From the NCBI RefSeq assembly GCF_006547065.1, contig NZ_CP041243.1, forward strand, positions 1,627,001-1,691,000: a stretch of 64,000 nt of DNA. The letters run 5' to 3'. The notes under the pieces are model-generated. The model was not told the DNA's origin. It ran no database searches and was given only the letters and a program-made list of their open reading frames with translations. Numbering within the stretch: position 1 is the first letter of the stretch; each line of letters starts with the position of its first letter. Of this stretch, positions 54,031 to 55,614 are shown piece after piece. The DNA is from Brevundimonas sp. M20 (GTDB lineage: Bacteria > Pseudomonadota > Alphaproteobacteria > Caulobacterales > Caulobacteraceae). A program made the translations under genes and the position numbers.

Positions 54031-55614
54031 TCAGCCGCCGACCGAGGTCAGGCCGCCCATGTAGGGGACCAGAACGTCCGGCACGCGGATGGAGCCGTCT
54101 TCCTGCTGGTAGTTCTCCATGATGGCCACCAGGGTGCGGCCGACCGCGAGGCCCGAGCCGTTGAGGGTGTGGACGAACTCGGTCTTCTTCTCGCCGTCAC
54201 GCTTGAAGCGGGCGTCCATGCGGCGAGCCTGGAAGTCACCGCAGTTCGAGCAGGAGCTGATCTCGCGGTACATGCCCTGCGACGGCAGCCAGACCTCGAG
54301 GTCGTAGGTCTTGCGGGCCGAGAAGCCCATGTCGCCCTTGCACAGCAGCATCTTGCGGTACGGCAGTTCCAGCGCCTGCAGGATGGCCTCGGCGCAGCCC
54401 ACCATCCGCTCATGCTCGGCGTCGGAGTCCTCGGGCCGGGTGATGGAGACCAGCTCGACCTTGTGGAACTGGTGCTGACGGATCAGGCCGCGGGTGTCTC
54501 GCCCGGCCGACCCCGCCTCGGCCCGGAAACAGGGCGTCAGGGCGGTCATGCGGATGGGTGTCGCCAGCTGGCTCTCAGGCAGGATCTGCTCGCGGACGAG
54601 GTTGGTCAGGGAGACTTCGGCGGTGGGGATGAGGAACCCTCGCCCGCCGCCCTGACGCCCCAACTCAGTGAATTTTTCCGCCGCCTCGTTGTAGGAAGCG
54701 ATATGCTCATCAAAGCCTTTGACCGCCGCACCGAACAAGCCAGCAAGGCGCTTGAAAACCGGCGACGCCCACCGCGCATCAACGCCAGCGGCTAGCCCGT
54801 CCTGAAGCTGCGCACCAGCAAAGTCATTCAGCTCACTGAGCTCACCAATTCGGGCGCGTCGCTCCCTGTTTTCAGCGTTGAGAGCACTAAGCCGCAGCTC
54901 TTCTTGGCGGAACTCCAACCGCAGTTCGAAGAGATCTTCTTCAAATTTCGGCAGTTGCCCGGTCCCAAACATCGCCTTCTCACCGACGATAAATGGCGGG
55001 TTCACTTCCAGATAACCGTTCCGACCCGTCTGGAAGTCCAGCATGAACTGGCCGACGGCCCGCTCCAGTCGCGCCAGATGGCCCTTCAGCACGGCGAAGC
55101 GAGAGCCGCTCATCTTCGCGGCGGCCTCGAAGTCAAGCAGGCCCATGGCCTCGCCGAGGTCGGCGTGGTCCTTGGCGGTGGTGGAGATCACTGGCTGCGG
55201 CGAGCCAGCGCGGTCCGAGGCCCAGCGGCTCGTCTCGACATTGCCCGCCTCGTCCTCGCCGTCCGGGACGTCGTCGGCGGCCAGGTTCTTCAGCCCCGCC
55301 AGCAGGTCACGCAGCTCCTTGCCGACGCTGGCCTCGACCTGTTCGGCGGCGGCGATGTCGGCCTTGAGGGCCTCGACCTCGGCCTTGAGGCGGTCGGCCT
55401 CGGCCATGTCCTTCTTGGCCATGGCGGCGCCGATCAACTTGGAGGCGGCGTTGCGTTTGGTCAGGCCCTCCTGCGCCGTGGTCTGGGCCGCGCGCAGCTC
55501 GCCGTCGAGGCGCAGCAGGTCGGCGACCAGCCCGTCAGCCTCCTCGACCCCGCGCGACGACCAGCCGCTGACGAATGCGGCGGGATTGTCACGGATGGCG
55601 CGGATGTCGTGCAT
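54031..55614 (-). CDS. serS: Seryl-tRNA synthetase with internal insertion
   Basis: A class II synthetase charging tRNA-Ser. The N-terminal coiled-coil arm is at about residues 25-110 ([14 protein letters not shown] start). The catalytic core has GTGQLPKF (217-224), [13 protein letters not shown] (328-340), motif 2 [21 protein letters not shown] (363-383) and motif 3 near [15 protein letters not shown] (485-500). At 527 residues it is about 80-100 longer than usual: residues 231-326 separate DLF from LIPTAE, which in E. coli are about 16 apart. The inserted part is charged and helical. ATG 55614 begins the conserved domain. Confidence 0.96.
54637..54927 (-). other. Insertion within the serS catalytic domain, low G+C
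   Basis: This codes for residues about 230-326 of SerRS. The protein part has [24 protein letters not shown] helices, then [19 protein letters not shown] and [15 protein letters not shown]. Hand-counted G+C over 54661-55020 is 202 of 360 (56%), against about 70% around it. AT-ending codons (TTT GAA GAA GAT) appear at the edge. The reading frame stays open. Confidence 0.75.

Follow-up and report, generated by a model that had tools for sequence, protein, structure and literature searches.

The insert site of serS, the seryl-tRNA synthetase (SerRS) gene of Brevundimonas sp. M20, is hypervariable across the genus and beyond, and the oversized insert found there is no one-off local event. On sequence comparison the insert proves to be an allelic, protein-coding module, which is under purifying selection within the families tested and is unrelated between many close relatives. 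Aminoacyl-tRNA synthetases are textbook conserved enzymes. We propose, with a probability of roughly one half, that SerRS is attacked by a protein whose existence we infer and which most likely arrives with phage infection, and that the insert acts as a replaceable shield against it.

An oversized, low-GC3 insert in SerRS of Brevundimonas sp. M20

The window, a 64,000-nucleotide stretch of a 3.3 Mb single-contig genome, contains the only serS match of that genome (Table 1). Its product is a bacterial-type seryl-tRNA synthetase with predicted aminoacylation of tRNASer: it matches the TIGR00414 equivalog model in two stretches (478.4 bits against a cut-off of 301.65) and contains PF00587 and PF02403 according to the Pfam profiles. 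GTGQLPKF begins at residue 217 and LIPTAEV at residue 328, with 103 residues between them, i.e. 91 above the canonical 12 (canonical range 11-12), which bears out the oversized insertion of about 80 residues recorded in the initial annotation. FLIPTAEV is what we take to be the start of the TxE serine-binding stretch, and third codon positions at this 3' boundary are more uniform in the 55 insert-bearing than in the 14 insert-less members of the genus.

Table 1. Features of the window bearing on serS, its insert and the control gene
Feature	Position	Strand	Remarks
ValRS gene	19325..22135	-
surE, conserved serS neighbor	52622..53413	-	in the same stretch as serS in 112/120 loci
Small putative lipoprotein gene (by eye)	53485..53901	-	between serS and surE; 26-62% identity where found
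serS, seryl-tRNA synthetase	54031..55614	-	527 codons plus stop; ATG at 55614; SerRS coding part 54034-55614
3' conserved boundary FLIPTAEV, residues 327-334	54613..54636	-	LIPTAEV invariant in an alignment of 45 SerRS
Hypervariable insert, residues 230-326	54637..54927	-	predicted mostly helical; most relatives read have inserts of unrelated sequence
5' conserved boundary, residues 217-229 (13 residues)	54928..54966	-	GTGQLPKF and DLF invariant in an alignment of 45 SerRS
Low-GC3 tract, core residues 196-229 plus insert	54637..55029	-	taken as one exchanged unit from the GC3 bins and the VGE haplotype

The low-G+C patch noted earlier (202 of 360 nucleotides by hand count) and its extension into the conserved core upstream of the insert were both recovered, in that positions 54637-55020 are 58% G+C (223/384) and about 34 core codons are low in GC3. 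Computed over successive 15-codon bins, GC3 drops at residue 196 (window position 55029) from 0.93 to 0.60, holds at 0.47-0.80 up to about residue 330 and then returns to 0.93, so that the tract ends at the 3' boundary; outside it the bins of this gene lie at 0.80-1.00. The dip ranks fourth among 328 ORFs in a 464 kb sample (the window and 20 stretches of 20 kb). As the three ORFs outranking it dip near their starts, in sequence which we judge to resemble the wrong frame, we take serS to hold the largest internal dip in a recognizable gene of that sample. The same tendency is seen across the inserts, with a mean GC3 of 0.58 against 0.85 for the core and a lower value for the insert in 77 of 79 cases; the last ten codons upstream of the insert are also low (mean 0.675), and the first ten downstream have a mean of 0.836.

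Low GC3 by itself is no proof of foreign DNA, and its value as such proof is weakened by valyl-tRNA synthetase (ValRS), our control, which has a milder variable loop that is likewise low in GC3; low GC3 may thus partly be a property of variable loops. A single full-span ValRS match of 2.70-2.81 kb was found in 39 of 47 genomes, three more being split by a longer loop and five present as fragments. Twelve ValRS were fetched, partly for their length, of which eight were readable and used and four were dropped. In these eight, the Brevundimonas loop between WYG and QDEDVL has either a short form, as in the window, or a longer form with a GC3 of 0.55-0.67 (four sequences: L338, L339, L340 and L342). 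In contrast to the SerRS inserts, these long loops are similar in sequence to one another.

The small gene lying between serS and surE is fast-evolving; it was not found in many relatives and has no Pfam match. A linked partner gene for the insert was considered and rejected: the serS-surE order is conserved, and this varying gene occurs both with and without an insert.

Hypervariability among close relatives

Our survey of the order covered 398 genomes, of which 110 loci with a full SerRS were read, two of them fetched twice. The GTDB genus of the window comprises Brevundimonas and Peiella, and all 46 of its surveyed genomes were read: an insert lies at exactly the same site in 38 (gap 24-124), and eight have none (gap 11-12). 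The initial annotation had named a common insertion of normal G+C as evidence against its own reading. Here the commonness was found, the site being occupied in most of the genus genomes read, but by inserts that for the most part share no sequence relationship and are low in GC3.

A first set of 212 distinct inserts, biased toward the window's insert by the search used, was clustered at a phmmer threshold of 1e-3 and gave 105 clusters, including 75 singletons. The final set of 554 distinct SerRS leans to close relatives; its 315 inserts with a gap of at least 30 fall into 154 clusters, 110 of which are singletons, and the gap is below 20 in 233 of the 554 proteins. The largest cluster, with 55 inserts, includes that of the window, its size reflecting a search biased toward this insert. 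We compared 1518 pairs with a core identity of at least 0.88, drawn from 269 sequences and preselected on the 3' core; in 1380 of them the two members belong to different insert clusters or only one has an insert. Furthermore, a search with the 3' core only, blind to the insert, chose the 50 nearest proteins, all at least 95% identical to the window's 3' core (P0002 included); 20 of these have no insert and the remaining 30 have inserts belonging to 23 clusters. For example, four records named B. nasdae (P0190, P0194, P0222 and P0227) have flanks that are 97.3-99.5% identical and gaps of 54, 59, 30 and 122, and their inserts fall in four separate clusters (P0194 being represented in the clustering by the identical L032). 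Unrelated alleles between close relatives with near-identical flanks, the hallmark of a hypervariable target, are therefore present, and judged by these comparisons inserts are replaced much faster than the cores diverge. Certain lineages are nearly untouched by this, as only 3 of the 120 listed neighbors of one insert-less Caulobacter SerRS have an insert.

The longest inserts seen in the genus, in L063 (gap 124; insert at 4601-4954 of that locus, minus strand) and P0227 (gap 122), fall in one cluster, though on two different cores, and may represent a distinct larger fold. A nuclease-like stretch in the L063 insert was discounted, the best match in a sequence search of solved structures (0.053) being to a ribosomal protein.

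Exchange of the insert together with flanking core in the window serS

The 12-residue tract upstream of the window's insert is similar to the one found in proteins that share its insert family but have more distant cores (P0003-P0005, whose 3' cores are 0.875-0.885 identical to the window's), where it reads FIVGE or YIVGE; in the listed proteins with 97-99% identical 3' cores (P0002 apart) it reads PPYLVKDD, PYMVKAD, PPYLVRDE and similar. VGE occurs in this tract in six of the 541 sequences used for the test (out of 554), namely the window protein (L001), P0002, which differs from it by one residue, and P0003-P0006, all with a gap of 103. As VGE is confined in these sequences to carriers of the window's insert family, we conclude that the tract moved with the insert. 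The haplotype thus demonstrates, at the level of sequence, segmental exchange with flanking core for the window serS. Elsewhere such exchange is only hinted at, since among genus members codon mismatch near the junction shows no clear excess in different-insert pairs over insert-less pairs, and in only 6 of 67 pairs (insert identity at least 0.6, core identity below 0.93) do the inserts match each other better than the cores do. Over all families the tract identity is 0.829 within the same and 0.797 between different families, a small effect. The exchange of a foreign serS segment that had been suggested at the outset therefore stands with respect to the linkage of tract and insert family, but not as one local event at what is a hypervariable site.

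Constraint, predicted fold and domain content

Among 16 hand-picked pairs within insert families, dN/dS was computable for 13 and was below 1 in all of these (0.04-0.61), which implies that the inserts are constrained proteins; in 11 of the 13, dN/dS of the insert is higher than that of the 3' core and the constraint thus weaker, although relaxed constraint would give the same result. The synonymous divergence (pS) of the insert exceeds that of the 3' core in 15 of the 16 pairs, which would fit old alleles, with the codon bias of the core also lowering core pS. Of 135 inserts, 110 have a net negative and 10 a net positive charge, the core being slightly negative too; as the inserts are mostly net negative, the tRNA contacts once envisaged for the insert look unlikely.

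AlphaFold2 predicts helices at residues 234-275, 283-298 and 301-320 of the window protein, with block pLDDT values of 86-92 for residues 241-320, in agreement with the earlier description of the insert as helix-rich. The P0059 allele is modeled as a two-helix hairpin with moderate confidence, below that of the window model, and some other alleles appear from their sequences to be non-helical. Mean pLDDT is 77.9 for the window model and 69.3 for that of P0059; the core is partly of low confidence in both, so we do not use the models to locate the insert on the enzyme. A fold search with the model placed SerRS structures among the best 50 matches.

Scans of 118 inserts with Pfam, PHROGs and PADLOC returned scattered matches with one member per displayed family, the best scores being 5e-4 (DUF6364, Pfam), 0.0044 (PHROGs) and 0.0026 (PADLOC), and we reject the identification of the insert with a known domain. 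An intein or other self-removing element is likewise rejected: no intein was among the 25 of 43 Pfam families displayed, all 135 inserts together contain eight cysteines, and the shortest insert has 18 residues. Derivation from a phage domain was dismissed on the PHROGs results, with their best score as above and one member per family in the 25 of 36 families displayed.

Distribution outside the genus

In a survey of 387 genomes of the class, 25 were picked for a split or weak match, and seven loci gave no full SerRS. Of the 25 picked, 15 have an insert (gap 35-122); they belong to 11 families outside the order. This is a minimum count, since a short insert leaves the match in one piece. Insert GC3 is below that of the core in 14 of these 15 and by more than 0.1 in 11. 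Named carriers include Asticcacaulis, Afipia, Rhodopseudomonas, Tardiphaga, Devosia, Parvibaculum and Erythrobacter. Three loci from Holophagaceae of the Acidobacteriota (L264, L265 and L267), including Geothrix limicola, have an insert at the identical site, with gaps of 104-123 and a GC3 of 0.47-0.50 against 0.72-0.91. In a FastTree phylogeny of the cores the Holophagaceae SerRS branch away from the alphaproteobacterial ones, suggesting at least two uses of the site, or movement of the inserts alone. In a phylum-wide search, assessed by E-value only, no split pattern was seen among the listed rows outside the class, G847, G855 and G874 being set aside.

No viral locus had a gap above 24 among the 52 readable of 54. 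Of 97 plasmid records matching serS, most of the 60 listed span about 1.2-1.3 kb, the canonical length, and these match spans disfavor an insert on plasmid-borne serS.

Brevundimonas jumbo phages with their own SerRS

A tblastn search of 50,697 phage records with the window SerRS gave 25 matches, among which records from Listeria, Enterococcus, Staphylococcus and Acinetobacter look in our judgment like host sequence. SerRS is annotated in seven phages of Brevundimonas pondensis with genomes of 312-357 kb. All seven enzymes have the canonical 12-residue gap and are insert-free, their boundary motifs are altered (GTGQLPRF, ATGQWPKF), and in a FastTree phylogeny they form a divergent clade outside the hosts. 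The seven phages, all from one host species, constitute two close groups, with identities of 0.94-0.99 within and 0.52-0.53 between them. In the three phages tested PF00587 scores above the cut-off once in each and PF00133 in none; a second PF00587 match in Marchewka is weak, falls below the cut-off and was discarded. In the whole annotation of vB_BpoS-Kikimora, where most genes are hypothetical, SerRS is the only synthetase named, and the genome has 29 tRNAs, four of them tRNA-Ser.

Kikimora also encodes a large set of tRNA-repair and NAD-salvage enzymes (L331-L337), comprising RtcB, a CCA-adding enzyme, a tRNA-His guanylyltransferase and a nicotinamide phosphoribosyltransferase, presumably genes of the sort linked to counter-defense. 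Downstream of serS, with none, one or two small ORFs in between, all seven phages have a gene annotated as a cell-cycle regulator, GcrA in most (L323-L325, L350-L353). A small ORF beside phage serS was considered as an inhibitor and set aside, as it is not constant and is absent from the annotation of three of the seven phages. A search with the neighbor gene found 18 phage records, two phages of Caulobacter vibrioides CB15 having been deposited twice; none of the 10 CB15 phage records sharing this gene is among the 25 tblastn matches. Nor are three smaller Brevundimonas phages in the collection: vB_BgoS-Bajun (207 kb, host B. goettingensis), which belongs to the same subfamily as the SerRS phages, and Leszy and BabaJaga (86-87 kb). 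The parts of the literature consulted place phages of the Kikimora, Marchewka and Bajun types with Bertelyvirus in the ICTV family Jeanschmidtviridae (PMC12451628), and a term search of the main text of a 2025 paper on the phage group (PMC12195562) gave no mention of SerRS.

A proposed replaceable shield and its alternatives

A constrained module free of family matches, fixed in its position within an essential enzyme and swapped between near-identical cores, is expected of a target escaping a binder. A binder inactivating SerRS would select rare or new inserts, and these would block or divert its binding without disturbing catalysis; a bulky module before the TxE stretch could obstruct a protein approaching the active site. 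The attacker would most likely arrive with phage infection, and the attack on host SerRS during infection could come from the phage itself or from a host or mobile defense. An insert-free phage SerRS would then keep serylation going once the host enzyme is disabled. Suspicion falls chiefly on phage, given that just such an enzyme is encoded by seven Brevundimonas jumbo phages and is the only synthetase named in Kikimora. Against the phage reading, translation genes may be present in large phages on other grounds, the sample of SerRS-bearing phages is small and drawn from a single host species, and Bajun and the two 86-87 kb Brevundimonas phages are absent from the SerRS matches. The fuller scenario, in which alphaproteobacteria swap SerRS modules to evade phage proteins and jumbo phages keep a private insert-free SerRS for translation, is offered tentatively, at odds appreciably below even. 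As for the cost of variation, insertion II of human SerRS lies close to the active site, within the catalytic domain, yet contributes negligibly to aminoacylation according to the portion of a review that we consulted (PMC10817482), and by analogy the bacterial loop can probably vary at little cost.

The same arms race could be run against an attacker other than a phage, such as an interbacterial or mobile-element toxin targeting SerRS. All the evidence from insert diversity would fit any protein attacker, and the site is variable in Holophagaceae too; but the open-access literature listings consulted yielded no SerRS-targeting toxin and the phage-encoded SerRS gives the phage a specific link, and we hold this variant to be rather unlikely. 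Under neutral tolerance, the loop would simply admit inserts that recombination and relaxed constraint turn over without any function. The negligible part of the human insertion in aminoacylation, the variable low-GC3 loop of ValRS, the insert dN/dS exceeding the 3'-core value in 11 of the 13 pairs and the 118 scanned inserts lacking a convincing family match all agree with this. Nonetheless, dN/dS stays below 1 in all 13 pairs, helices are predicted confidently in the window insert and with moderate confidence in P0059, an insert is present in 38 of 46 genus genomes, and ValRS is full-span in 39 of 47 genomes with long loops that are mutually alike, so that we consider neutrality unlikely. 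Lineages might instead have acquired their inserts to various ends, each insert serving one particular partner in docking or regulation, and eukaryotic and archaeal SerRS do bind protein partners, some via appended parts (PMC10817482, in the portion consulted); yet unrelated modules replace one another on near-identical cores and insert-less alleles are common, a poor fit to conserved partners that makes this very doubtful. Finally, the exchange of a single foreign serS segment in the window strain and nothing more is in keeping with the low-GC3 tract and the VGE haplotype, but is highly improbable and refuted as a complete account by the variation at this site within the genus, across the class and further afield.

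Relation to known systems and implications

The SerRS of the methanogenic type has a helix-turn-helix insertion between motifs 1 and 2, which is conserved and linked to serine recognition; it too is an extra helical module of the catalytic domain, whereas the Brevundimonas site is shared by unrelated modules. BamA, an essential protein that serves as the receptor in contact-dependent inhibition, has hypervariable loops explained by attack. It thus resembles SerRS as an essential protein with a hypervariable region, but it lies at the cell surface and its loops are homologous, as against the unrelated modules of a cytosolic enzyme. The target-recognition domains of HsdS are very divergent modules exchanged into conserved flanks, as in SerRS, with the known task of binding DNA; unlike SerRS, HsdS is not essential.

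Insertion II of the cytosolic SerRS of higher eukaryotes (human G254-N261) likewise lies in the catalytic domain before the same conserved stretch, an approximate match of position (query 326-519 aligned to chain 265-459 of 4l87), but it is an eight-residue feature of higher eukaryotes, which the portion consulted does not describe as allelic or exchanged (PMC10817482). The self-immunity synthetase of the agrocin 84 producer is also an alphaproteobacterial aminoacyl-tRNA synthetase shaped by an inhibitor; it is, however, a LeuRS facing a small-molecule toxin, and the parts of the account consulted describe no hypervariable insert (PMC5059758). A paper combining SerRS and Caulobacter (PMC7590224) was set aside as a precedent, as what was seen of it concerns engineered tRNAs. 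Our searches of open-access full text, a scope with subscription journals and preprints mostly outside it, brought up no report of variable-target logic in a synthetase.

Our findings caution against the use of SerRS length and insertions as lineage markers in these bacteria. If unrelated modules replace one another in such an enzyme, even between records under a single species name, a conflict over host translation would be indicated, and the insert provides a concrete handle for asking what inhibits SerRS.
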